Positions 561 to 36,447 of a DNA stretch of 64,000 nucleotides are shown here, piece after piece. The stretch comes from Pedobacter ureilyticus. Lineage in GTDB: Bacteria > Bacteroidota > Bacteroidia > Sphingobacteriales > Sphingobacteriaceae. The stretch is taken from the NCBI RefSeq assembly GCF_005925345.1, contig NZ_SSHJ01000018.1, forward strand, positions 37,849 to 101,848, given 5' to 3'. The translations under genes were made by a program, and so were the position numbers. Each line of letters opens with the position of its first letter. The stretch's first letter is position 1. The notes beneath the pieces were generated by a model that saw only the letters and a program-made list of their open reading frames with translations, had not been told where the DNA came from and searched no databases.

Positions 561-1748
561 TTACTTCAATATAATCTTACTAAGACTACTGTCATATCTG
601 TAATTAATTATAGTTCCGTTTATCAAAAGATTTATCGCTTCATCAATTACGGGTAGAGGAACGACAAACCATTCTCTAGGAACTAATCTACGTTCATCAC
701 TGTCATAGATATCTACATCTAAACAATTCTCTGCAAAAAAACGATGAATCAGTTTTTCAAAAGCTTTAACATTTAAATTATAGCAAGAATAAGTGGCAAT
801 TATTTCTACTTCACTATAAAGGTACGTAGCCTCTTTAGAAGCATTTTTTATTCTCTCCATTACGTTGGTTGTTGAAAAACCAATTTTAAATAAGGTATCT
901 AATTGAGCTATTTCAGTTTTTTTAGATTTTGATTTTAGAACGTAAATCCAACCGCTTTGTAAATCTTCTTCCTCTACCAAGCTAGCACTCTTATATAGTT
1001 GCTGTTGCACATTCTCATCTGTGTCAGTAATTACCTTACCATTCTTTTGTATGACTTTGCCTAATGAGCGATAAAGCATATTGGACATCGTGGCATTTTC
1101 AAAAATCGTTACTGTACGACCATCTAGTCTTTTTCGTCCACCAATTTCTTCTTCAATTAATGTTGCCGATTCAAGGTATAGTAAAAGACCATCCAACAAA
1201 TAAAAATGTTCTACCTGAATGTTTTTGTAAACGTTTTCTGCTGGTACTAACTTGCGTTTGCCGCTCTTTAATTCTTGATGTACTTGCTTAAACATAGCTT
1301 CATACTTTTCAAAATCTTTATCTTTAATTGAAGTTCTTTGAGCCACAAAATCGGCATCTGCTCGTTTATTAAATTTAGGAATATGTTTAAACTCAAAAAT
1401 GGATAAGTCTCCCTCAGGATTTAGCAATCCTAAGTTATCCTCTGCTAAGATATCATCAAACGTCTTTTTTTCCATTTCTACTTCTCCAAGTAGATTGAAA
1501 CGGTCAAAAGGTTTTAATATCTTCTTTTTACTTTCATTACTTCTAAATCCTTTCAATCTAGCAAACAAGCTGTAATCAGACATACTGCCCGTAGATGGCT
1601 CGCTTTTATTTTTTTCATAGAATGAATTAATTTCCTCAAAAGAGTCTATAAGCCTGTCTTCATCAGTTTTAATTTGCGCAGATTTTTCTTTTTGATTAAG
1701 CAACCCAAAATCATCATCGTCAAATATATCGTCAAGTGTCTTAGCCAT
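561..1748 (-). CDS. GIY-YIG family nuclease with duplicated N-terminal motif
   Basis: This protein of 395 residues carries a C-terminal GIY-YIG nuclease domain of the T5orf172/MUG113 type at about residues 265-375. The GIY half is GWIYV (266-270), the YIG half is LFKIG (286-290), and a conserved H-R-F-F follows at about 335-338. GIY-YIG enzymes cut DNA, so this is the likely nuclease of the operon. The first 110 residues are acidic and low in order, with one 16-residue motif present twice: KTLDDIFDDDDFGLLN at 3-18 and KTFDDILAEDNLGLLN at 95-110. The middle (120-260) has no domain I recognise. The start overlaps the end of the helicase gene by 8 bases, so translational coupling is likely. The repeat could be a docking peptide for the helicase or methyltransferase; that is inference. 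Confidence 0.85.
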   Translation of the reverse strand: MAKTLDDIFDDDDFGLLNQKEKSAQIKTDEDRLIDSFEEINSFYEKNKSEPSTGSMSDYSLFARLKGFRSNESKKKILKPFDRFNLLGEVEMEKKTFDDILAEDNLGLLNPEGDLSIFEFKHIPKFNKRADADFVAQRTSIKDKDFEKYEAMFKQVHQELKSGKRKLVPAENVYKNIQVEHFYLLDGLLLYLESATLIEEEIGGRKRLDGRTVTIFENATMSNMLYRSLGKVIQKNGKVITDTDENVQQQLYKSASLVEEEDLQSGWIYVLKSKSKKTEIAQLDTLFKIGFSTTNVMERIKNASKEATYLYSEVEIIATYSCYNLNVKAFEKLIHRFFAENCLDVDIYDSDERRLVPREWFVVPLPVIDEAINLLINGTIINYRYDSSLSKIILK

Positions 1749-3744
1749 TCTGTTCTCGCTTTCTTTTTGCCTCTCTTAAAAATACCAAAGCTTGTGCCAT
1801 TCGTTGTTCTTTTTGATCAAATGATTGAATATTTGGTTGCTCTCCAGTTTTAGCAACCCATTCTTTGATTTTATCCCACAACAGAATAGCTTCTTCCTGC
1901 GTCATTTCTATTTTGGAAACATTTATTGTATCTTGAATAGCTTTAAGAACCGATGTAGTTACCGATTTTGATAATATCTCAAATGCCTTTTGAAAAGGGT
2001 TTATTGTATCAATTAGGTCAATATGAATATCATCAATATCAACAAAGCTGCCAGCCATTCTAATAAACTTTTTACTTCCCTGCTCCTCAATTGTACTATT
2101 TTTAATAACCGAATCGACAACGACATATTGCCTTACTGCCTCTATATCTTCTGCACTTAAATCAGGGTATATTTCTCTGATTATTTTAGGGATAATAATT
2201 GTATTAATCACTTCTGGCTCTATATTACCAGGCATTGCCTTGAGCATCGTATCATCTTGTAATATTCTTGCCTTTAAATCATTTAAATCACTATCAATAA
2301 TATCTTTTGCCCTTTGTGATGTTGGTAATTTAAAACCCCTAACTTTAATAGTCTTTCCGTCATCGTCGTTTTCTTGTTCGTAATTATCGTCATCATACTT
2401 TGGCCTAAAATTAAAGTTTGGTGCTAATACTTGCTCCATTAACAATGATGCAGTAATTGCCTTTAACATATTGTTTACAGCTAGCTTTACATCGTCATCT
2501 ACAGCATCGGGTTTTGCAATTAGATTTGTAAACTGTGCATGTGTTTTATTACTACTATCTCTAGTTGCTCTACCAATTATCTGAATGATTTCCGTTAAAG
2601 AGCCACGATAACCAATAGTCAAAGCATGTTGACAGAAAGGCCAATCAAAGCCTTCTTTCGCCATCCCTAAAGCTATAATTATGTCAATATCATCAGCACT
2701 GCTAACTCCCCTTAAATAAGCTACAGCTTTATCACGTTCTTTTTGATTATCATTAACCAAGTCAGCAATTTTCAAAATACGTCCACTTCGTTTACTTTTT
2801 ACGTAAAGTATTCCCGTTTCATCATCTTGATATTCTAATTCTCCAATACAATCAATTACATGGCTAACCTCTTCAAGCTTTTCTTTTGAAGATTCTGCAG
2901 AATTTACACTTGGTATATGGATAATTGTTTTTAGATTTTCATCTAGTATTTCTTCAAGTGCAGATAGTCCACTATCATCTTGTTTTTTATAATACCTACC
3001 TTGATAAAAATGATAGCCAATACCTAGCGATTTTAAATGTTCATAACCATTTAGTTGCTCATAGTAATTATAGGTAACTTTAGTAAATTTTGCTTCGTCC
3101 TCTGGCACAAGAACAGGAATGTTATCTCCCCTAAAATATGAACCAGTCATAGCAATGATATGAGCAGTAGATTTTTCCATTACCTTGCGTAATACATCTC
3201 CTAAGCGATTTTGACCCTCAGCAGAAACATGATGAAATTCATCTATTGCTAAAAGACAGTCATTAAGGGATGTATCAGTCATTCCCTCGAAAGCGAAACG
3301 GAGTGTAGCATGTGTGCAAATAAGTATCTTCTCATCACTTTCTAAAAAGGATAGAAAGGCTTTTACTTTACTGCCATCATTACCAACAGTACATAGATTG
3401 TATTTTGGATTTAGTTCCCAATCAGCAAAAAAACCAAACTTAGTTAATTGAGTAGGACTAAATGAACTTCCTATTGAACGTTCTGGCACAGCTACAACAA
3501 CTTTCCTTATACCTTGATTTTTTAATTTATCCAAAGCAAGAAACATTAAGGCTCTTGACTTACCTGATGCTGGAGGTGCCTTTAATAAAATGTATTTGGC
3601 GGTTCTAGCTTCAAAAGCCTTGGCTTGCATTTCTCGCATGCCTAAGCTATTTATTTGCTTGCTTTCACCAGTTTGCGCATAATTAACCTGCACCAAGTTA
3701 ATTGGTTTAAAATATGCTATTTCTTCTGTTTTCTGTTCGCTCAC
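1741..3744 (-). CDS. DEAD/DEAH-box superfamily 2 helicase
   Basis: This is a superfamily 2 helicase of 667 residues with all the main motifs visible: Walker A APPASGKS (56-63), Walker B LLAIDEFHH (164-172), motif III AMTGSY (198-203), and motif VI QIIGRATR (388-395). The sequence GFDWPF before motif VI is typical of the restriction-helicase group (UvrB/Res type). Residues after 450 form an unassigned alpha-helical tail. It sits between a DNA methyltransferase and a GIY-YIG nuclease, overlapping them by 4 and 8 bases, so it is probably the translocating motor of a restriction-type complex. No nuclease motif is evident in this chain. The exact system name is not clear from sequence. Confidence 0.9.
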   Translation of the reverse strand: MSEQKTEEIAYFKPINLVQVNYAQTGESKQINSLGMREMQAKAFEARTAKYILLKAPPASGKSRALMFLALDKLKNQGIRKVVVAVPERSIGSSFSPTQLTKFGFFADWELNPKYNLCTVGNDGSKVKAFLSFLESDEKILICTHATLRFAFEGMTDTSLNDCLLAIDEFHHVSAEGQNRLGDVLRKVMEKSTAHIIAMTGSYFRGDNIPVLVPEDEAKFTKVTYNYYEQLNGYEHLKSLGIGYHFYQGRYYKKQDDSGLSALEEILDENLKTIIHIPSVNSAESSKEKLEEVSHVIDCIGELEYQDDETGILYVKSKRSGRILKIADLVNDNQKERDKAVAYLRGVSSADDIDIIIALGMAKEGFDWPFCQHALTIGYRGSLTEIIQIIGRATRDSSNKTHAQFTNLIAKPDAVDDDVKLAVNNMLKAITASLLMEQVLAPNFNFRPKYDDDNYEQENDDDGKTIKVRGFKLPTSQRAKDIIDSDLNDLKARILQDDTMLKAMPGNIEPEVINTIIIPKIIREIYPDLSAEDIEAVRQYVVVDSVIKNSTIEEQGSKKFIRMAGSFVDIDDIHIDLIDTINPFQKAFEILSKSVTTSVLKAIQDTINVSKIEMTQEEAILLWDKIKEWVAKTGEQPNIQSFDQKEQRMAQALVFLREAKRKREQNG

Positions 3745-6455
3745 TTGCTTTTTAATTTTTTAACAGTTTTGATTTTTGCAAATAATGTATCTTTTTTGGC
3801 CATTTCTTCATAAAGTTTGAATAAATGCGCTAGTCGCTCAGCATCAGTTGTAAATGGAGCTAACCGATAAATCCTTTCAATAGCTTCATCTAAAGCTTTA
3901 TGTGCCAATTTTAAAGTACTGGGCATAGTATCGGGGTTATACATCCAAGCCATAGTTTTTTCAGGATATTTTGCTCGTTCATCTAAAATATCAAAAACAT
4001 ATTGATTGATATTTTCTTTTTGTTTAACGTTTATTTCTGGAAATGGAAATGTGTTGTAAACAAGTTTAGCAGAGTATCTGTAATCCGTCTTTAGTTTACC
4101 ACCAATGTTGTCAACCCATATCATATGCATTTTAGAATGAATAATCCCAAAAAGCCAAGGTTGCGCACCATATATTGCCATTGCAGAATTAGAAATTACT
4201 GTTTCAGAATTTAAAAAGCCTATAGGTATATAAGTTCTTCTTTCTGATGAGGTTGCTGGAACTATTATAGAATCAGTTTCTTGATGCCTATTTTCTCCAA
4301 AAGCAAAGGGTATTTTAGCTAGTTTGACCGTTGCCATTCTGTTACTTTCTCCTCGCAATTTCCTGACTTGGTTTATTCTTTCTCTTATTGGAGATATGTT
4401 TTGTGCAAGTGGAAGTGTATCCTCATTTATCCAAATACAGTATTTTTCTATTCCTTGTAGAAATTCAGCACCTCCAGCAAATTTCTTTATCAATTTTAAA
4501 GAATTGGGATAAACTGTAGTTAAGTAAGATTTTTCATCCCTATTTAATAATAAAGAACCTCCATCGTTTGGCATGCTACCAAAGTTCATTTCGGGGAATT
4601 TGCTTAAAGGCTTCGTTCTGGGCAACACATAAATGTTAGGAACGTCAATAAGGTATGCATTTATGTTCTTTACTTCCTTTTTGATGTTATCAGTATAAAG
4701 AAATTTAGGTTGAGTGCTTAAATTCCTAGCTCCAATTATAATAACTGTAACGCCAGCATTTCCAATTGCATTATTAGTCCATTTAAATGAGTGATATGCA
4801 AATTCCAACTCGATATTATCCTTTAACAATGTTGGCCATAAATTAGAAACCTGCTCGCCTTGGCAGATTGAGTTTGTAGTTACAAAAGCAAACTTGGCAT
4901 TTAAATTTTCAATATATTTTTTTGCCTTAAAAAACCATATTGCAATATAATCTAGATTATTTGCTCCCTTAATAGAATTTAAAGTAAATGCTATATCACC
5001 TTTTTGCTCTTCATTTTGTTTCCGAGCACCATAGTAAGGAGGGTTACCCAAGATGTATACCTCATCATCTTTTTTAACGGGGCAAACTATTTTCCAGTCT
5101 ATTCTAGTTGCATTTCCACATATAATATTTCCAGCTTGCTTCAGAGGGAGTATTGGTTTACTTTGCCCATATCCCTCTAAACGCTCATCAAATACCCTAT
5201 TCATTTGATGTTCGGCTAACCATAGAGAAAGTATGGCCATTTCATGTGCAAAATCTTTGATTTCTATACCGTAAAATTGGGATAGTTTGATAATTGTAAA
5301 TTGCAGAGGAATTGTAAAGCCTTGTTTGGTGGTTAGATCAATTATTCTTTTAATTATCTCAATTTCTAAAAGCCTAATTTCTTTATAGGTTATAATCAAA
5401 AAATTCCCGCTTCCACATGCAGGATCAAAGAACTTGATTTGCCCCAATCTAGCAATCAATTTGTTAAGTCCAGTTATACTATCATATTGTTTTTCATATT
5501 CTGAATTTAACTCATCTAGAAACAAGGGTTCTATTAATTTTTTAATATTAGGTACAGATGTATAGTGCATCCCTAAGTCGCTACGCTCTTCGGGGTCTGC
5601 TACTGCCTGTATCATTGAGCCAAAAATATCTGGATTAATTTCACTCCAATCTAAATCTCCACAGCTTAAAAGCAAAGTTCTAGCTTTTGAGGAAAATTTT
5701 GGCGATGTTACGTTATTTCTAAATAAACCACCGTTCACATAAGGAAACTGATTTTGTAGATAATCTGGAAAAGAACCCTTTTCAGTATTTAGACGTTGAA
5801 AAAATGAATTTAAAAATTCATCAACATCCCTGCCATCAACATTTGTATGTTGTGATAAAGTCTCTGTAAAAATGCTTGATTTCTCAAATATACCAGTGTC
5901 CTCTGCAAAAAAACAGAATAGTAATCTTGATAGAAAAATATTTAACTTATGGCTGTCTTCTTTGAAGTCAGGATTGTCTTGAACTAGGATGTCATAAAGC
6001 TGTGCCATCTTGTAAGCGGCATCCCTATCAGCTTTGTTGTCATTAGAGGATTTATAAACCTCTGCACCAGTTAAAGGTAGAAAAAAATCAAAATATTTTG
6101 GTAGTTCCTTGAGTGGGAAATCTCTATTTAATTTTGTTTTTAAATCTTTTGCTACTAATGTTTTATAATCAGTTACAATAACAAATCTTGGATTTTGTTT
6201 AAGTAATTTTTCGTCTGTTGCAAACTCATCAACTTTTAAATGTAAATCCGTTTCAGCATAGGTGAAAAACAATTTGTTTTTATACAAAACTTCGCCAGTA
6301 ATTTTAGATAAATTGAAGTCTCCCTTTTTTAATCTGTTGACCGATGTTTTTGAAATTCCATAGGCTAAGAGCAATTCATAAATAAACTCTTCATTATTTA
6401 TGTTTGCTATCAGTTTTTCGAGGTTAGCTTCAATTTCTTTAGAGGTCATAACCAA
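3741..6455 (-). CDS. MmeI-like class I SAM-dependent DNA methyltransferase
   Basis: This protein of 904 residues is a DNA adenine-type methyltransferase. Motif I is FFDPACGSGNF (342-352) and motif IV is NPPYYG (471-476), the N6-adenine or N4-cytosine class. The stretch LSRLLFCFFAEDTGIF (175-190) and DLGMHYTS (293-300) match the helical spacer and core of MmeI-like proteins. The region after about 580 is likely the target recognition domain and C-terminal helices. In MmeI itself the N-terminus is a nuclease; here the first 130 residues show no clear D-(x)n-E-x-K motif, so cutting may have passed to the partner GIY-YIG protein. It is the first gene of a three-gene run and overlaps the helicase by 4 bases. 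MVM gives two possible starts two codons apart. Confidence 0.9.
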   Translation of the reverse strand: MVMTSKEIEANLEKLIANINNEEFIYELLLAYGISKTSVNRLKKGDFNLSKITGEVLYKNKLFFTYAETDLHLKVDEFATDEKLLKQNPRFVIVTDYKTLVAKDLKTKLNRDFPLKELPKYFDFFLPLTGAEVYKSSNDNKADRDAAYKMAQLYDILVQDNPDFKEDSHKLNIFLSRLLFCFFAEDTGIFEKSSIFTETLSQHTNVDGRDVDEFLNSFFQRLNTEKGSFPDYLQNQFPYVNGGLFRNNVTSPKFSSKARTLLLSCGDLDWSEINPDIFGSMIQAVADPEERSDLGMHYTSVPNIKKLIEPLFLDELNSEYEKQYDSITGLNKLIARLGQIKFFDPACGSGNFLIITYKEIRLLEIEIIKRIIDLTTKQGFTIPLQFTIIKLSQFYGIEIKDFAHEMAILSLWLAEHQMNRVFDERLEGYGQSKPILPLKQAGNIICGNATRIDWKIVCPVKKDDEVYILGNPPYYGARKQNEEQKGDIAFTLNSIKGANNLDYIAIWFFKAKKYIENLNAKFAFVTTNSICQGEQVSNLWPTLLKDNIELEFAYHSFKWTNNAIGNAGVTVIIIGARNLSTQPKFLYTDNIKKEVKNINAYLIDVPNIYVLPRTKPLSKFPEMNFGSMPNDGGSLLLNRDEKSYLTTVYPNSLKLIKKFAGGAEFLQGIEKYCIWINEDTLPLAQNISPIRERINQVRKLRGESNRMATVKLAKIPFAFGENRHQETDSIIVPATSSERRTYIPIGFLNSETVISNSAMAIYGAQPWLFGIIHSKMHMIWVDNIGGKLKTDYRYSAKLVYNTFPFPEINVKQKENINQYVFDILDERAKYPEKTMAWMYNPDTMPSTLKLAHKALDEAIERIYRLAPFTTDAERLAHLFKLYEEMAKKDTLFAKIKTVKKLKSK

Positions 6456-6567
6456 AAGTAGCTATTTTCGGTCATTGGAAGCTTAGCTTTTAACAGAAAT
6501 TCTTGTGCAATTTGAAAATCATAATTCATTATATTTGAAATAGACTGATTAAATAAGTCTGGCCCTT

Positions 6568-7662
6568 ATGAACCTTAGAAATTTTTTATCTGATGAATAT
6601 TTCCTTCTACCAAAGTCACAGCCACCAAAGGAAGATTTTAAGCTTTTTATAGTTAGGCAGTATGATATCTTTTTGGAAAAATTGGAAGCACTTAGGCCTT
6701 TTTTTTTGTTTTCTGACTATACTGATTTCGACATTTCCACCATTATTGAAAGACAAACTATTTTAGTTTCAAAGCTCAAAAATGCTATCGAATATATATA
6801 TGATGGGAAACCAAATAAAGCATTTCAAGAAGTTGAAAGCGGCTTAAATAGTAATATCAAAGATTTTTCAGAGGTACTTAACGTGAAGGAATTTCCTATC
6901 GACACAAATTTCTACAGGATGCGTTACCATAGGGAAAATTATCCTTTAGATAATGAAAATTTTTTCCATATTCCATACCAATTACGTGGAATGGTAAGTA
7001 CTCAGCGTTTTAGTATTCCTGGATTTCCATCTTTATATTTAGGTAATTCAGTGTACGTTTGTTGGGAAGAGCTAAAAAGACCAAATATAAACAACTTTCA
7101 GGTTGCGAGATTAAAATCTTTATCAGAGCTAAGTGTTATTGACCTTTCACCTCCAGATGAGAGCGCTTCTTCACGAGACCTTTATAGATATCTTATGACT
7201 TGGCCTCTTGTAGTTTCATGTTCAGTAAAGGTGAGAAATCATGAAGATAGCTTTAAAGCAGAGTATATCATACCGCAGCTCCTTCTTCAGTGGGTAAGGG
7301 AAACTCAGCAGGTTGATGGCATAGCTTATCAAACAACAAATATTGATTATAGCTCTACACTTTCAAAAGGTAAATTCACAAATTTTGTTCTTCCTGTTAG
7401 AGAAAACAAAATTCGTGGGTATTGTGGGGTATTGAGAAATAAATTTGGGATAACTAGTCCAGTTTCTGTTCAACTAAATCAGCTTGCTGACGGTTCAGGT
7501 AGTTACACATATCTTCAAACAGAGTTAGAAAACTTGAATCCAAATATTGAAAGAATTGAATTTATTAAAGGTTCTAGGGGTATATATGGTATGTCTATAT
7601 TGGGCTCTTTGGAGAGGAAGTTGAACAATATGGAAACGTTACGTATTCCAATTCGTGATTAA
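6568..7662 (+). CDS. RES-domain protein (possible NAD-degrading toxin-like effector)
   Basis: Residues about 112-290 form a RES domain, the fold of NAD-degrading toxins such as MbcT and ParT. Visible marks are FYRMR (115-119), QRFSIPG (146-152), LYLGNS (156-161) and W-E-E (166-168), covering the conserved Arg, Ser, Tyr and Glu positions. The protein is 364 residues, about twice the length of toxin-antitoxin RES proteins, with an extra N-terminal helical region of about 110 residues. No Xre/MbcA-type antitoxin gene is adjacent. It is transcribed away from the methyltransferase operon, with starts 112 bases apart, which suits a shared regulatory region. A role as a suicide effector of the island is inference. 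Confidence 0.75.
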   Translation: MNLRNFLSDEYFLLPKSQPPKEDFKLFIVRQYDIFLEKLEALRPFFLFSDYTDFDISTIIERQTILVSKLKNAIEYIYDGKPNKAFQEVESGLNSNIKDFSEVLNVKEFPIDTNFYRMRYHRENYPLDNENFFHIPYQLRGMVSTQRFSIPGFPSLYLGNSVYVCWEELKRPNINNFQVARLKSLSELSVIDLSPPDESASSRDLYRYLMTWPLVVSCSVKVRNHEDSFKAEYIIPQLLLQWVRETQQVDGIAYQTTNIDYSSTLSKGKFTNFVLPVRENKIRGYCGVLRNKFGITSPVSVQLNQLADGSGSYTYLQTELENLNPNIERIEFIKGSRGIYGMSILGSLERKLNNMETLRIPIRD

Positions 7663-7976
7663 AATGATAGAGATTATTAATAGGAAGCAACTTGAATCAC
7701 ATATTAACTTTACCAATTTTATCCTCATAATAATCAATAACTACCAATTAGCAATTAATCGCCCAGCACTAGTTTAGCTTCAGTTAAAGTATCATTTATG
7801 GAGGCAGATTTCAATTTCACAATTGAAGTTGAAATTTATGTAAAACGTCACACTACAAAGGGAAAGTATATTATTAAAAGACCAACATAAATAATACTAA
7901 ACAATTTTTTAAAAAGAGAAAAATGAATTTATTCAGTATTTTAAATAAAGTAAAAATTAGAGCCGAATGTTCATCT
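7663..7976. other. AT-rich intergenic stretch between convergent genes
   Basis: These 314 bases lie between the ends of the RES gene and the NACHT gene. I see no convincing gene. A 30-codon frame from 7798 to 7890 on the plus strand exists but has no family resemblance. There is no strong hairpin. Confidence 0.5.
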
Positions 7977-9848
7977 TTACAACTTAAATCCTAACAAGGT
8001 AATATTTGCAGCATTCTCTTCTTCTAATTCCTTTTCATATTTTTTTATTGCCTCTTCAAGTGATTTTATCCAATCTATAAAAAGGGAAGTAACTTCAGAC
8101 TTTTCAATTAAATTTTCTAATTCTTCACCCCAATGATATTTTGCAGGAAAGTAATAGTTAAATTTCTCATTATCCTCATTATGTAAGCTCTCTTTATTAG
8201 CAGGGTCATCCAGCTTAGAAAGTAAATATTCTGAAAATTCTTCTTTTAAATCTTCATGTGTTTGTGAAATAATATTGTATACATCAAAGCTATTCAAATT
8301 AAGAAATCTAAAAATTGAATTATATAGACCATAAGCAGAGTTATATATTCGTGATTTATTAAACCTAAATTCGGTTTCTCCTAATTGCTCAAAACCTTCT
8401 CGTATGTTCCATATCAGATAAAGCTGATGAAGTTTTTTAACACCACTGAACATCTTAAATTTTGATGTAAAATCTTCAAGAAAATATATTAAGAACATCT
8501 TTGTAAAATCACGCTTATCTATCTCTAAAGCTAAAGACCATAGATTAAATGAACCACCTGTAGATTTGAACTCTAAACTTTTGAATTGAATCTGATATAT
8601 TTTTTGTTTAATATTTACATTGAAATCTTTAATTAACATCACTGAAAAATACTCCTGAATTGACTTATGTGGGAATTTATATTCTATTCCGTCAATAATT
8701 AAAATGGATATTGCCACTGTTAAATCATCTATAAGTGTCTTAACATCAAAATCCATTGCAAGTTCTTTCTTTATCTGACTTAAAGATAAACTTAGATATT
8801 CGGCATCGAAACTTATTCTTCCTTCGAATAACGATTTATAAGATAGCCATTGCAAAATTTTCTCAAACTGCTCATTTTGTAAGCCAGATTTACGCTCATG
8901 CTGATATCCTCCTTTTTTTGTAAAACTGTCATGTTTGGTTGCTAGAGTATCGAACACATTCCAATAAAATTTACTTTTTTTCTTTGGAAGTTCAGGGTAC
9001 TGACTAAACGTCAAAATAAACATAGAAAGCAATAAGGGACTGCTCAGAAAGTTACTATAATCTTTGTTTTCTGGCTTGGCGATTACTTCTTTTATTTTTG
9101 CTCCTAGTTCTTTGTCATCAGTTCCTTTTAAAACTATATCGATAAATTGGCTTATTTCACGCTTATTTAGCGGCATCACTGGATAATTGTTAAATCTTGG
9201 CATTGCATCAACACCACTTCCAGGGCGTGATGAAATTATATACTTGTTTTTCGAAAATCTGTCTATAAATTTATCTATGTCATTAGTAACAGAATCTTTT
9301 TTCTCAGAAAAAATTTCATCATAGCCATCAAGAAGTAACAAAAAATTTCCACTTTCCAATAGCCTTTCTAGTATTTTGCTATTAGGTGACAAACGATTAT
9401 TTAGAATTACCTCATATATTAAATCTGTAAAACTACCTTTAAAATCATTTAAACTTCTAAGCTCTATAAATAGAGGTATTTTATAGCAAGTTTTTATACT
9501 TTCTAAGAAAAAATGCTTCATCAACATGGTTTTCCCAGAACCTGCTGTTCCAATTATACTTACGAAATTAGATTCGCCAAATAAATCTTCACAAACAGTA
9601 ACGGTTTTTGTTCCTTTTTGTATTTTAACAGATACAGGAAAAAATACATCATAGAAATTAACGTTTTCCTGACGGTAAAGAAAGGTTTTTGTGTGTTGAA
9701 ACTTATCCTTTATACTATTTATATAATCTGGCAAACCATCATCTAAAAAAAATAGAATCTCTGTTTTGATATCCTTACAAGATTTAAGTATTGGGTCTTT
9801 AAAAGCACTTACAAGACTAATTGTGGAAGCTGTTGTTAATAGAGCCAT
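7977..9848 (-). CDS. NACHT-domain NTPase (STAND family, probable defence protein)
   Basis: This protein of 623 residues carries a NACHT-type STAND ATPase module. Walker A is GTAGSGKT (100-107) and the Walker B region is LLLLDGYDEIF (170-180), with the small residue and second acidic residue typical of NACHT. SSRPGS follows as sensor 1. The N-terminal 90 residues are helical with no known effector; the C-terminal half (about 350-623) is an alpha-rich region likely used for sensing. Bacterial NACHT proteins (bNACHT, Avs relatives) are known to protect against phage, and this one lies alone in a defence-rich island, divergent from a serine recombinase. No nuclease or protease domain is visible, so how it would act is unknown. 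Confidence 0.82.
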   Translation of the reverse strand: MALLTTASTISLVSAFKDPILKSCKDIKTEILFFLDDGLPDYINSIKDKFQHTKTFLYRQENVNFYDVFFPVSVKIQKGTKTVTVCEDLFGESNFVSIIGTAGSGKTMLMKHFFLESIKTCYKIPLFIELRSLNDFKGSFTDLIYEVILNNRLSPNSKILERLLESGNFLLLLDGYDEIFSEKKDSVTNDIDKFIDRFSKNKYIISSRPGSGVDAMPRFNNYPVMPLNKREISQFIDIVLKGTDDKELGAKIKEVIAKPENKDYSNFLSSPLLLSMFILTFSQYPELPKKKSKFYWNVFDTLATKHDSFTKKGGYQHERKSGLQNEQFEKILQWLSYKSLFEGRISFDAEYLSLSLSQIKKELAMDFDVKTLIDDLTVAISILIIDGIEYKFPHKSIQEYFSVMLIKDFNVNIKQKIYQIQFKSLEFKSTGGSFNLWSLALEIDKRDFTKMFLIYFLEDFTSKFKMFSGVKKLHQLYLIWNIREGFEQLGETEFRFNKSRIYNSAYGLYNSIFRFLNLNSFDVYNIISQTHEDLKEEFSEYLLSKLDDPANKESLHNEDNEKFNYYFPAKYHWGEELENLIEKSEVTSLFIDWIKSLEEAIKKYEKELEEENAANITLLGFKL

Positions 9849-10007
9849 GAATTTAGATTATTAAATTTTGAAATTAACATTTTTTAAACGTTACACAATA
9901 AAAATCATAACTAAAATTAGCACAACCTTCTTTGAGGAATTTCTTCTTAAGCTTTGTTTAATGCATATTTTGTTTTAATTTTATTGTGTGATTTATTTTA
10001 AAACATA

Positions 10008-10604
10008 ATGAAGATAAAATATAATAGAGTTAGTACGCTTCAACAAACAGGGCTTAGGTTTTACGCTGATAAAGAATCTTATGATAAAATATTGCTTGAT
10101 AAAGTTTCGGGCTCTATGCCATTCAAGGAAAGACCTCAAGCGAAGGAATTGATAAAGCTTATTGAAAAAGGTTTGGTTGAAGATTTAATAGTAGAAGAAT
10201 TTTCAAGATTAGGGCGCAATACAGGCGATGTAATTAATACAATTGAATGGCTTGATGAAAATGGTGTTAATGTAATTGTAAGAAACCTAGGGCTTCAATC
10301 AAGACCTAATGGCAATAAAAATCCTGTTTGGAAAATAATATCAACTGTAATGTCTTCATTATATGAAATGGAGCTTGAGAATATCAAGGAAAGAACGTTA
10401 GCTGGTAGAATGATGTATGTTCAAAATGGTGGTCAGTTAGGTAGACCAAAAGGTTCTAAAGAAAATAACGCTGAGTTCCTTAAGAAAAAAAGCTCCATTA
10501 CGGCATTAAATTGCCTCAAAAAAGGACTTACTGTAAGAGAAATAGCAAAGATTGCTGACATATCTACCGCCACCGTAATAAAAATTAAGAAATTGAGTTC
10601 TTAG
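10008..10604 (+). CDS. Serine recombinase (resolvase/invertase family)
   Basis: This protein of 198 residues is a small serine recombinase. The nucleophile Ser9 lies in YNRVST, and EEFSRLGRN (63-71) carries the conserved S-R-x-x-R of the active site. The catalytic domain runs to about residue 130, helix E follows, and a C-terminal helix-turn-helix (GLTVREIAKIADIS region) binds DNA. Its size fits resolvases and invertases such as Tn3 resolvase or Hin. It is divergent from the NACHT gene, with 159 bases between the starts. I see no transposase or invertible segment nearby, so it may resolve multimers of the mobile element or be a leftover from one. Confidence 0.88.
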   Translation: MKIKYNRVSTLQQTGLRFYADKESYDKILLDKVSGSMPFKERPQAKELIKLIEKGLVEDLIVEEFSRLGRNTGDVINTIEWLDENGVNVIVRNLGLQSRPNGNKNPVWKIISTVMSSLYEMELENIKERTLAGRMMYVQNGGQLGRPKGSKENNAEFLKKKSSITALNCLKKGLTVREIAKIADISTATVIKIKKLSS

Positions 10605-10622
10605 CTATCTAACGAAAAATAG

Positions 10623-11387
10623 TTAATCTGTATCTATGTTTAAAAAATCCTTAAAAGAAGGGCTAAATTCGAATTTGGTAACACTTTCTCCTCTTCCTTG
10701 CTTAAGCTCGATTGTACTATAGGTCTTTAATAAATTTTCTGATGCTAGATACGAAATGAGGTTTTCCATTGACGCTTTATATGTAGCAGAAGAGTAAACC
10801 TCAGGTACATCTATATTGGGCTTTTTCTTTAGTATCCCCAATAATTCTCTGAAACTAAATTTTAATTTTTCCTTCGTTGAGCTGGCATTAATATAATTTA
10901 ACACAGTATCATAATCTTTTCTTGAAATCTCTGAAATCGTAGCATCGAGATTTCTTGAAGATAAATTAGTGTTAACCTTTCTTAGATTATCAATATCATC
11001 TGCTAATGCTTTATTCTCATCTAAAGCCTGTGATAATTGTGCTGTGAGCGCACTAATTTTTTCAAAGCTCTCTATCTCAGTCGTTATTTCCTTATCTTTT
11101 CTATAAAACCATTTTAGACAAAAATTTAAAAAAGTATTTATCATTGTGAAAATGATAATGAGAGATATTGATATTAATAGGCAAATAAATATCCTGCAGG
11201 AATAGACGTCAGAATATTGACTTTTAACGTAATTAATTTTAACTAGTGCATCATTTTGCTCAAACAGAAGATAAAAAATTATGTCCCAGTTGTACAATAT
11301 TAAAACTGTACAATAGGTCGCAATTATTGGTATTTTCAATCTTGAACTTAAGGATTTAGTTAGGTTTTCGAGCAAATTTTCTTCCAT
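10623..11387 (-). CDS. Two-helix membrane protein with coiled coil and possible winged-helix tail
   Basis: No named family is certain. The chain of 254 residues begins with about 20 polar residues, then two membrane helices at about 20-40 and 62-92, with a soluble loop of about 20 residues between them. Residues 105-165 are rich in E, K, L and S with heptad-like spacing and look like a coiled coil. The last 80 residues, ending in a beta-hairpin-like GRGESVTKFEF, could be a winged helix. Similar N-terminal modules (helix pair with N-W-D between) occur in Bacteroidota accessory genes. It converges with the recombinase gene, 18 bases apart. A membrane-associated defence role is only inference. 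Confidence 0.6.
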   Translation of the reverse strand: MEENLLENLTKSLSSRLKIPIIATYCTVLILYNWDIIFYLLFEQNDALVKINYVKSQYSDVYSCRIFICLLISISLIIIFTMINTFLNFCLKWFYRKDKEITTEIESFEKISALTAQLSQALDENKALADDIDNLRKVNTNLSSRNLDATISEISRKDYDTVLNYINASSTKEKLKFSFRELLGILKKKPNIDVPEVYSSATYKASMENLISYLASENLLKTYSTIELKQGRGESVTKFEFSPSFKDFLNIDTD

Positions 11388-16255: not shown

Positions 16256-17230
16256 CTAAAAGACATTGATTTTCCCAATCCTAAGGTTCAAAAGTTCTAT
16301 ACCTTCATCAGATGTTTTAAAGTCCTTGTCACCAATGAAATTTGAATAAACTTCATTGCTATAACCCTCGCTGGGAACTAACTTCAATGCTATGTCCTTA
16401 CCCTGTAGTACACCGTTGTTGAAACTTACCACATAGCCGTCATAATCCCATTCAAATCCCTTGAATGTTATGTGTTCCCTATTTATTTTTAACAGCTTTT
16501 CTAATGGCATGCCAACATAGATCCCATATGGAAGTTTAATCTTTGAATTTTTTGTTATAATTATTGAAGGACTCCCGTCACTGAAGTTTACTTCAACTTC
16601 TTTCGAGGTATTGGGGTAGAGGATATACTTGTAGCCAATGTCATTGTTTTCATTGTCATAAAATTTTTCCTTTCTAAGATTCTTCTCTCCATAATGTTCA
16701 TATAGCTGTGAAGCATTCTTAATATCAAGAATTGTTTTAACATCAAATCTTGCTGTCTTTGTACTTCTCTTTTCATTGGGAAGATTATCACTAGATGTAC
16801 TATTTGACGTAGTATCTATATTGGCAATTGGTTCGCTTGCATCAGTATTTTTTGAAAATTTATTATATAGAATAAATCCGATTAGTACCACAAGTATTAT
16901 AGTTACCACTACTGTAAAGACATCCCATTTTCTTTTAGGTTCAATTATTTCAGTTGTCAAGTCTTCTTGAACAAAAGTACTTTTATCTACGGCTGGATTT
17001 AAAGCTGGCTGTTCATTTTTTTCAACATATATGATAGTTGGCTCAGTTTCCTTTTTACATGCCCATACAAGGGCTATAACCCAGCCAACACCTGTAGCGC
17101 CTAAAAATAGATTTAACAGAAATATTGAAAGAACATCTTTCTTATTCCTAGCGATAATTGATGGAAGAAAATATAGAAAAAGTACTATTATGGATATAAA
17201 AATCAATGCGATTAAGACGTTATTTTCCAT
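16256..17230 (-). CDS. Superinfection-immunity-domain membrane protein with extra C-terminal domain
   Basis: The first 60 residues match the superinfection immunity (Imm-like) family: helix 5-25 followed by YFLPSIIAR, then FLLNLFLGATGVGWVIALVWAC split across a second helix at 35-58. In phage T4 this family blocks DNA entry of later phages, and it is also common in bacterial genomes. Here it is followed by a linker, a third helix at about 106-125, a Ser/Thr/Asn-rich linker, and a domain of about 160 residues (165-324) that I do not recognise. The total length of 324 residues is far more than the 60-100 of simple members. With three helices the C-terminal domain probably lies on the opposite side from the short loop. 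Function is inferred only from the first domain. Confidence 0.65.
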   Translation of the reverse strand: MENNVLIALIFISIIVLFLYFLPSIIARNKKDVLSIFLLNLFLGATGVGWVIALVWACKKETEPTIIYVEKNEQPALNPAVDKSTFVQEDLTTEIIEPKRKWDVFTVVVTIILVVLIGFILYNKFSKNTDASEPIANIDTTSNSTSSDNLPNEKRSTKTARFDVKTILDIKNASQLYEHYGEKNLRKEKFYDNENNDIGYKYILYPNTSKEVEVNFSDGSPSIIITKNSKIKLPYGIYVGMPLEKLLKINREHITFKGFEWDYDGYVVSFNNGVLQGKDIALKLVPSEGYSNEVYSNFIGDKDFKTSDEGIELLNLRIGKINVF

Positions 17231-20992: not shown

Positions 20993-22327
20993 CTAAATGT
21001 CGTCAGGTATTGATGTGGTTTTGGAGTTATTAATAGAATCTAAATCTAGCAACTTACTCTCATACTCTTCAACTTTATCTGCACTAAAACTATCAAGATA
21101 TGCTTGAGTAGTTTTAATATCTGTATGTCCTAGTTGCTTAGAAATAAAAGCGATTGGAGCATTATTGTTCATTAAATTGGTTGAAAACGAATGTCTAGCA
21201 TAATATAAACTGATTTCTTCAGTGATATTAAGTTTAGCTGATATTTTTTTGAGGTTGGCATTTATTGCTGCTATTTTGATGGTTGTTTTGGTTTTTATTT
21301 GTAATTCACTATCTCCGTATTTGATGACGTTAAAAACGTAAGTAGCATCTGATTTATACTTGTAAATTATTTCTTTCAGTTGTGGATTTAATCGAACTGT
21401 AATTTTGTTTGTTCCACCTGTTTTTTTTGCTGTCTTTGTTCTTATGAAAGTAAATTTATCGCCTTCTATGTCATTCCATTTTAGTTTGAAGATGTCTATC
21501 GGGTTGATACCGCTCGCTAAGTAGCTAAAAATAAATACGTCTTTGGCAAACTGCTCGTTTTCTGTTACAGGCTGATAATTGAAAATCAACATTATTTCAG
21601 AGATATTTAGTGCCCTTTTGTTATTTGAAGCCTTGGGTATTTTGTATCCCAAGCGATTATCCGCCTTATGAAACGGATATAGATTTGGATTAATTTCCCT
21701 TGTACTTATGGCTTCATTAAATATTGACCTGACTCTAATTAGGTACATGCCAATAGTAGTTCTGCTATATTTGCTCCTTACTTCATAATCATTTTTAGAA
21801 CCTTTGATTTTTCTCTTGACAGGAACATTTATTGCCCACTTTTCAAAGTTGTTTAGCCATGTGGCGGTTACTGCGTTTAAAGGCAGTTCTTCTAATGAGC
21901 TTTTTTCATTTGTATTGTTTAGATTAATATAATTTATCAAGATTGACGCTGTTTGTTTATAGAGATTGTAACTTGAGAAATTCTCATCATCCCTAAATTT
22001 ATTAGCCTTCTCATTAAGTAAGAATATCAAGTTACTGCGGTTACCTTTTTGATTAAAACGAGTTGTAAAGGTTTTAAAATTGAAAGGCTCTAATGACTCA
22101 ATAATTTTGTTAGCTTTCACTAATAGCTCATCAAGAGTATTTCTGTACTTTAATAAAGTTCCTTTTAGATGAGTGCCCTTCATCATCTTTTCGAAATCAC
22201 TTTCGCTTAATGAAATTGTAGTGCCAATTCTTTGGGCGTTTTTATTATCCGAGACCCTAATTTTAACGGGGTAGGAGCCATCTTGTTTTTGTTTCCTAGT
22301 ATCTAAAACGATTCGAGCTGTAGCCAT
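20993..22327 (-). CDS. Tyrosine-type site-specific integrase
   Basis: The 444-residue protein is a Bacteroidota-type phage/ICE integrase. It begins with an arm-binding domain (MATARIVLDTRKQK), has a SAM-like core-binding domain at about 100-215, and a catalytic domain from about 235. The box II region reads YYARHSFSTNL, the box after it LGHTDIKTTQAY, with the nucleophile Tyr in AYLDS near residue 415. The usual first catalytic Arg is replaced (SYLASGINPIDI) and the His of H-x-x-R is a Tyr, changes seen in other integrases of this phylum such as IntDOT-like enzymes. It is the last gene before core-like sequence, so the attachment site probably lies in 22328-22732. Confidence 0.9.
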   Translation of the reverse strand: MATARIVLDTRKQKQDGSYPVKIRVSDNKNAQRIGTTISLSESDFEKMMKGTHLKGTLLKYRNTLDELLVKANKIIESLEPFNFKTFTTRFNQKGNRSNLIFLLNEKANKFRDDENFSSYNLYKQTASILINYINLNNTNEKSSLEELPLNAVTATWLNNFEKWAINVPVKRKIKGSKNDYEVRSKYSRTTIGMYLIRVRSIFNEAISTREINPNLYPFHKADNRLGYKIPKASNNKRALNISEIMLIFNYQPVTENEQFAKDVFIFSYLASGINPIDIFKLKWNDIEGDKFTFIRTKTAKKTGGTNKITVRLNPQLKEIIYKYKSDATYVFNVIKYGDSELQIKTKTTIKIAAINANLKKISAKLNITEEISLYYARHSFSTNLMNNNAPIAFISKQLGHTDIKTTQAYLDSFSADKVEEYESKLLDLDSINNSKTTSIPDDI

Positions 22328-22732
22328 AACCTAAACTACAAAAAAAATTGCTATTTGCCCGATATTTGCCCGATAAATTTTAATTGCTAGAAATAGTCAG
22401 AAACATTAAACTGCATTAAAAGTATCTTAAAGCATATTTTTAACTAGATAAAATTTGTGGAAATGATATTATATGTCTCTACTGATGACATATTTTTCTT
22501 GTTTTAAATTGAGCTGCAAAGTTACGGCATAGCTTTGTGAATATCAATTTAATAAATAGTGCTTTACAAATTGATGATGTTGTGCTTAACTGCGGCATGT
22601 GAGTTAAAGTAGGTTAAGCTTTGATGTATAGCTGTGTGGCTGAAAGGATTAATTATTTAATTGACGCTATTGAATCTTTTAATCTTACCACACTAAATAT
22701 AGCATACTTAGCGTGGTAAAATACTAATGCAC
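22328..22732. other. Island-chromosome junction, probable attachment region
   Basis: These 405 non-coding bases lie between the integrase start and the end of the thioredoxin gene. No tRNA or complete gene is visible. The base composition stays AT-rich up to about 22.7 kb. The integrase is transcribed away from the junction, so attR is expected here, but its exact core cannot be named without the other end. Confidence 0.45.
22685..22719 (-). terminator. Hairpin after the thioredoxin operon
   Basis: The arms TTACCACACTA (22685-22695) and TAGCGTGGTAA (22709-22719) pair at 10 of 11 positions around a 13-base loop, 14 bases beyond the last operon stop. There is no long T-run, so terminator is likely but not certain. 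Confidence 0.5.
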
Positions 22733-36141: not shown

Positions 36142-36447
36142 GGTTTGTACTGATTAAATTTTGCGCAAAGATAATCGGATTGGTGAGGTAAGAAGAAATA
36201 ATATTGTATGATGTTTAATGAATTACAAACTATTTAAATTTCGTTCTTCTTTGCTAGTCAGTTTGAGCTTGCCGAAGCTGCTATCGAAAAATGTTCGACA
36301 AGCTCAAAAGGTGTTTCATGAAAAAGAAATTTAAGCAGTTTCGTTATTTGTAATATAGTATGTTGTGCATACGCTAAACTAAATTAGGTCGTACTTTTCA
36401 CTTTGCCATAGATCAGCATCGCCAGGAGGGCCATTTGCATTAAATTA
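36142..36447. other. Intergenic stretch with REP-like hairpin
   Basis: There is no gene in these 306 bases between the divergently placed ABC-F start and the DUF1080 stop. TTTGAGCTTG (36262-36271) and CAAGCTCAAA (36299-36308) form a 10-bp perfect inverted repeat, extended by a near-match, typical of dispersed palindromes in this genome. Confidence 0.6.
36166..36173 (-). promoter_or_regulatory. Candidate -7 promoter box for the ABC-F gene
   Basis: TATCTTTG on the minus strand, 25 bases before the ABC-F start, matches the TAnnTTTG consensus. The upstream -33 element is not clear. Confidence 0.4.

Follow-up and report, generated by a model that had tools for sequence, protein, structure and literature searches.

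A full-length dnmA-yeeB-yeeC gene set on an integrative element of Pedobacter ureilyticus, probably a split-chain restriction-modification system

DnmA (YeeA) of Bacillus subtilis, an MmeI homologue without a nuclease motif, methylates GACGAG, and in other species too its gene is followed by genes for a helicase (YeeB) and a T5orf172 protein (YeeC) (PMC7261158, PMC9973331). According to the same two papers, Morgan et al. noted the gene set in 2009 and suggested a Type I-like system, and Makarova et al. counted the helicase and the nuclease among the genes of defence islands. The accounts of this widespread three-gene set conflict, a dead relic in B. subtilis standing against a protective role in Vibrio, and in Vibrio crassostreae deletion of dnmA or yeeB made the cells more sensitive to some phages (PMC7261158, PMC9973331). 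MmeI itself carries a PD-(D/E)xK-type nuclease domain in residues 1–155, and base 6 of its site is set by a residue pair, E-R giving C and K-D giving G (PMC4833311). Here we analyse a 64,000-nucleotide stretch of the Pedobacter ureilyticus genome (contig NZ_SSHJ01000018.1, positions 37,849 to 101,848; "the window"), which holds an intact dnmA-yeeB-yeeC set that probably works as an ATP-dependent restriction-modification (R-M) system with its functions split over separate chains.

The three-gene arrangement is not new, being a member of the described dnmA(yeeA)-yeeB-yeeC cluster (PMC7261158, PMC9973331); an initial annotation, made from the DNA alone, had allowed for an existing entry under a different name, and this is the name. 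That annotation had also set an exact match to a system of described mechanism as grounds against its proposal; the match found is half of that, a gene set already known with a mechanism that is still a proposal. The intact window copy makes restriction activity directly testable.

The operon in the window

The initial annotation had placed an MmeI-like methyltransferase, a superfamily 2 (SF2) helicase and a GIY-YIG nuclease in this order, with overlaps of 4 and 8 bases, and the open reading frames (ORFs), coordinates and domains were all verified. The features, in window coordinates, are as follows.

3741–6455, minus strand: MmeI-like gamma-class adenine methyltransferase (DnmA/YeeA type), 904 residues from TTG, ORF open
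5979–6449, minus strand: N-terminal domain in place of the MmeI nuclease (MmeI_N match, residues 3–159), D-x9-E-x-K triad absent by column test
4032–4643, minus strand: target recognition domain (TRD; MmeI_TRD, residues 605–808)
4083–4091, minus strand: specificity pair K789/D791, equivalent to MmeI 806/808 by alignment to MmeI 5hr4
3741–3744, minus strand: methyltransferase/helicase overlap of 4 bp, GTGA, with no insert in the window copy
1741–3744, minus strand: SF2 helicase/translocase (YeeB type), 667 residues, GTG start, ORF open
1741–1748, minus strand: helicase/nuclease overlap of 8 bp
561–1748, minus strand: GIY-YIG/T5orf172 nuclease (YeeC type), 395 residues, ATG start, ORF open
1698–1736, minus strand: short acidic motif in the nuclease, first copy (LDDIFDDDDFGLL), D12 and L17 each present in 83/84 sequences
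1422–1460, minus strand: short acidic motif in the nuclease, second copy (FDDILAEDNLGLL), D104 in 77/84 and L109 in 79/84

The methyltransferase more likely starts at the in-frame ATG at 6449 (902 residues) than at the TTG at 6455. It matches MmeI_Mtase (1.2e-100) and MmeI_TRD (4.3e-77), with MmeI_C, MmeI_N and MmeI_hel above their Pfam cut-offs too, carries motif I (FFDPACGSGNF) at residue 342 and NPPY at 471, and can be aligned to MmeI 5hr4 across residues 87–903; the source genome contains a single MmeI recognition domain. The helicase matches DEAD (1.3e-9), ResIII (2.7e-7) and Helicase_C (2.4e-6) and has its motifs in place, with Walker A PPASGKS at residues 57–63, DEFH at 168–171 and QIIGRATR at 388–395. 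Only motor domains, beginning at residue 36, were above the Pfam cut-offs in this protein, so that no nuclease domain was found on it, and alignments with HsdR start at chain residues 222–260. In the nuclease, MUG113 (3.4e-14) and T5orf172 (1.1e-12) match a C-terminal domain at residues 266–374 of 395, and both acidic motifs form a short helix beside low-confidence stretches of the predicted model. By family alignments the window copy is full length, and the catalytic residues are invariant in 75 aligned helicase sequences and in 84 aligned nuclease sequences.

Comparison with PADLOC-DB 2.0.0, a check proposed in the initial annotation, gave 990 bits for the methyltransferase against the type IIG restriction enzyme model; the best scores of the helicase (41 bits) and the nuclease (16.6 bits) point to no strong model for either. 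The catalogue model thus names such methyltransferases type IIG restriction enzymes despite the missing nuclease triad, and since the partners have no strong model of their own, a catalogue search would mislabel the system.

From the specificity pair alone, the window enzyme is predicted to recognise NNNNAG, with the A methylated and G at position 6; given its K-D pair, a G is expected to follow the methylated A at the end of the site, which is also how GACGAG ends.

Coupling of nuclease loss to the partner genes

We compared 80 loci, the best-scoring of 556 confirmed and therefore not a random sample, from a scan that took one genome per species. The nuclease gene adjoins the helicase gene on its downstream side in 80/80 loci, and the two overlap by exactly 8 bp in 34 of them. 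In 69 loci the methyltransferase gene precedes the helicase gene on the same strand, and in one it lies downstream; in the other 10 it is not visible, their contigs reaching no further than 2.4 kb upstream of the helicase. The locus titles span Bacteroidota, Proteobacteria, Campylobacterota, Planctomycetes, Chlamydiae, Bacillota and one archaeal metagenome-assembled genome. Whether other genomes keep the three genes in order had been posed as a check on the initial proposal; they do, and the absence of a conserved order, which was to count against it, is contradicted by these loci.

The D-x9-E-x-K residues, which we take to be the triad of the MmeI nuclease domain, were read from alignment columns. 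For the enzymes with partner genes, the window methyltransferase and those of 61 of 70 loci were used (complete, longer than 850 residues), followed by six more; the triad was found in 0/62, the window enzyme included, and in 0/6, hence in 0/68 in all. The other set came from an even draw of 395 Bacteroidota genomes, 44 of which gave a methyltransferase match; loci were taken from 30 of the 44, source genome included, and of the 29 MmeI-like loci three shorter than 850 residues were left out. The triad columns read D, E and K in 23 of the remaining 26, and the three exceptions (L088, L089 and L105) have helicase and nuclease genes downstream (loci L119–L121). None of the 23 genomes bearing the triad is among the nine of the draw that hold the helicase. 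Within the sample examined, enzymes with a nuclease of their own lack the YeeB-YeeC pair, and those without one have it.

In the same draw (thresholds: helicase E≤1e-50, nuclease E≤1e-20, methyltransferase E≤1e-40), the nuclease was found in the same nine genomes as the helicase, adjacent and on the same strand, although in G303 a gap of about 385 bp separates the two, and seven of the nine are among the 44 with a methyltransferase match. Of the remaining two, one (G214; L126, 6490–11288) has a decayed copy, with a methyltransferase fragment and a helicase that has lost its N-terminus. In the other (G378; L125, 4635–13080) SIR2, HerA and Schlafen/AlbA-type genes take the upstream place beside the helicase-nuclease pair; the nuclease there is extended at its C-terminus by about 115 residues with no Pfam match. 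Among 148 nearer relatives the helicase was found in four, source genome included, and its twelve closest relatives are 94–97% identical, two of them named Pedobacter sp. The helicase also matches 263 plasmid records, and in 147 of these the match covers at least 80% of the helicase; the gene set is present on pP76 of Pediococcus pentosaceus (7.7 kb) and pCP105 of Rhodococcus opacus.

Judged by their sequences, target-recognition domains are swapped between otherwise near-identical systems. In 26 close pairs, defined by at least 75% identity of the methyltransferase domain, median identities were 86% for the N-terminal domain, 77% for the methyltransferase domain, 47% for the TRD, 89% for the C-terminal domain, 92% for the helicase and 84% for the nuclease, with TRD identity below 60% in 21 of the 26. 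Along one pair (L010 and L012), in steps of 40 residues, identity is 75–100% over residues 1–440, 40–51% over 601–800 and 90–97.5% over 801–880. The window enzyme and that of a congener (G063) agree to 93.6% in the N-terminal, 89.5% in the methyltransferase, 58.8% in the recognition and 82.3% in the C-terminal domain. The specificity pair varies as well (K-D in 30, E-R in 21, R-D in 8 and another pair in 3 of the 62 partnered enzymes), and differs, for example, between L016 (E-R) and L070 (K-D). A similar spread in the 26 other MmeI-like enzymes (15, 10, 1) indicates that this variation is common to the nuclease-bearing MmeI family.

Inserted genes and the carrying element

Inserts at the methyltransferase-helicase junction were counted in 69 of the 80 loci, leaving out the 10 without a methyltransferase and the one with it downstream. 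There is no insert in 31, and the gap exceeds 250 bp in 38, of which 35 contain at least one foreign ORF on the same strand, two only methyltransferase fragments and one no ORF of 80 residues. Names from Pfam and PADLOC, given to representatives and not to every insert, include RhuM (PDC-S05), Schlafen/AlbA_2, Fic, AAA_13 (PDC-S06, one with a PrrC match), PDC-M59A, Abi_C/AbiJ, YhcG and OLD/Gabija-like ATPases; by clustering, with short pieces counted, RhuM-type genes occur in 13 loci and Schlafen/AlbA-type genes in 11. In another genome (G342; L127, 4906–5679) a protein of 257 residues with no Pfam match at 0.01 is encoded between methyltransferase and helicase. Genes of PrrC, RhuM and Doc type are described inside R-M operons, and PrrC is kept inactive by its type Ic R-M enzyme (PMC3710099).

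At the helicase-nuclease junction inserts were found in 0/80 loci, and the three gaps of more than 250 bp (L056, L062 and L080) are the nuclease's own N-terminus. A locus outside the 80 (G303; L120, 3866–4249) speaks against reading this junction as never inserted: its gap of about 385 bp holds a same-strand ORF of 72 residues which by eye resembles the methyltransferase-helicase insert of L070, and it is the only helicase-nuclease gap found with a foreign-looking ORF. We read the helicase and nuclease as one tight unit and the methyltransferase as another, with second-line genes placed mostly between them.

The operon is carried by a 24,155-bp element (contig C10, 36167–60342, in the window up to 22494) at the start of ahcY. 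The element has about 31% GC, the right flank about 40% and the left flank 33–43%. Its ends are marked by the following features.

20993–22327, minus strand: tyrosine integrase at the right end of the element (Phage_integrase, 8.4e-16)
22474–22494, plus strand: right copy of the bounding perfect 21-bp direct repeat, which has two copies in the genome with up to 2 mismatches allowed
contig 36167–36187, outside the window: left copy of the repeat, spanning the ahcY start codon (ahcY by NCBIfam)

The longest word shared in 100 shuffles was 14 bp, and insertion of the element retains the ahcY start and replaces the region upstream of it. An empty site is seen in 3/9 congeners (G001, G007 and G076), where ahcY is directly preceded by the first 43–47 bases past the right repeat; the other 6/9 gave no match. 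In G063 the operon and ahcY are on one contig, with the operon about 7 to 13 kb away from the gene.

Other genes of the element include a RES-domain protein (6568–7662, plus strand) divergent from the methyltransferase and related to PHROG 7835, of unknown function, and a NACHT-domain ATPase (7977–9848, minus strand) weakly similar to the PADLOC candidate PDC-S60 and to antiphage EruA, which is possibly a second defence gene. A serine recombinase (10008–10604, plus strand) has the Mpi DNA invertase family as its best NCBIfam match, below cut-off, and only weak inverted repeats lie near it. An Imm_superinfect (superinfection-immunity) domain protein is encoded at 16256–17230 (minus strand).

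Competing explanations and comparison with known systems

In the mechanism that we propose, the MmeI-type methyltransferase, having no nuclease of its own, would read a short asymmetric site (predicted NNNNAG) and mark self by methylating the adenine in it. On unmethylated DNA it would load the helicase, which would translocate as HsdR does, with the GIY-YIG chain attached to it as the cutter; a complex of this kind would be expected to act against phages. The restriction reading of the initial annotation and its assignment of recognition, translocation and cutting to three separate chains are retained here, the last two being activities that we infer.

Several points weigh against this proposal. 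Deletions in B. subtilis left the three phages used and plasmid transformation unaffected, and the authors judge the set there an inactive relic (PMC7261158, PMC9973331); GACGAG is not avoided by phage genomes (PMC9973331). G378 keeps the helicase and nuclease with no MmeI-like methyltransferase at E≤1e-40, so that the pair may also act otherwise. The 26 close pairs behind the recognition-domain comparison are drawn from few loci and are not independent. The helicase fold is the generic SF2 core, matched equally well by Hef, RIG-I and HsdR, and the monomer models give no information on docking.

A methylation-guided defence that works by something other than simple double-strand cutting, such as a replication block like that of BREX (bacteriophage exclusion), nicking, or suicide set off when a complex stalls, is an unlikely alternative. 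It would account for toxin-like genes (Fic, RhuM, PrrC-like, Abi_C) being common at the methyltransferase-helicase junction and is in keeping with phage genomes not avoiding GACGAG, but a GIY-YIG protein with an active site invariant in 84 sequences adjoins the helicase in every one of the 80 loci, and the 31 of 69 loci without an insert indicate that the inserts are optional.

An orphan regulatory methyltransferase beside two inactive relic neighbours, the conclusion reached for B. subtilis, is quite unlikely for the window copy. There dnmA affects some promoters, and deletions of yeeB and yeeC were silent in the tests done (PMC7261158, PMC9973331), but the YeeB and YeeC of that species miss stretches which the Vibrio copies keep (PMC9973331). 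The invariant catalytic residues of helicase and nuclease argue against decay, and the sole copy seen with a methyltransferase fragment, that of G214, has also lost the helicase N-terminus. Switching of recognition domains fits the marking of self and non-self and would not be expected of a regulator that acts on fixed promoters. DNA repair or recombination genes lying beside a methyltransferase by chance are very improbable: in their favour are the generic helicase core and a match of the nuclease domain to Slx1, a branched-DNA nuclease, but the genes are patchy (9/395 Bacteroidota genomes), occur in 263 plasmid records and on an integrative element in the window, and are strictly coupled to loss of the methyltransferase's own nuclease.

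The evidence added here speaks for a living split restriction system rather than a relic, and the mutual exclusion of built-in nuclease and partner genes, taken with the recognition-domain exchange, suggests such a system in many carriers. Beyond this we offer a tentative extension, somewhat doubtful as a whole, in which YeeB-YeeC would be a transferable ATP-driven restriction module whose GIY-YIG cutter replaces the built-in nuclease of MmeI-type enzymes, docking would take place through the two acidic repeats of YeeC, and the methyltransferase-helicase junction would take up second-line suicide genes whose products sense damage to the complex, in the manner of PrrC and its type Ic R-M enzyme.

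The difference from HsdRMS, type IIL (MmeI) and DISARM (defence island system associated with restriction-modification) claimed at the outset was upheld by the domain and PADLOC tests. With DISARM class 1 and BREX the window operon shares a related methyltransferase domain (DrmMI at 94 bits, PglX weakly), but the seven ORFs scanned in window 561–11387 gave no PADLOC match to drmA, drmB or drmC and included none of the BREX partners pglZ, brxC, brxL or lon; an ordinary lon gene lies about 11 kb outside the element, past ahcY. Type I systems (HsdRMS, for example EcoR124I) resemble it in having separate modification and motor chains, an SF2 motor of the same broad class and, as at R-M loci, toxin genes inserted in the operon, whereas in the window recognition lies within the methyltransferase (MmeI_TRD) and the GIY-YIG domain is on its own chain and is not a domain of the motor; HsdS had no Pfam match among the 10 + 7 window ORFs scanned. 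Type IIL MmeI has the same succession of methyltransferase, spacer, TRD and C-terminal domains, with alignable specificity residues, but the window enzyme is without the PD-(D/E)xK triad and the cutting part is on a separate chain. The closest likeness, by description and not by alignment, is to DnmA-YeeB-YeeC of B. subtilis and its V. crassostreae homologues, with a nuclease-motif-less MmeI-like methyltransferase, an SF2 helicase and a protein with a C-terminal T5orf172/GIY-YIG domain in equal order and strand, and among 14 control genomes that of B. subtilis has both an MmeI_TRD match and a T5orf172 match; the window copy differs in being full length and in residing on an integrase element at ahcY.

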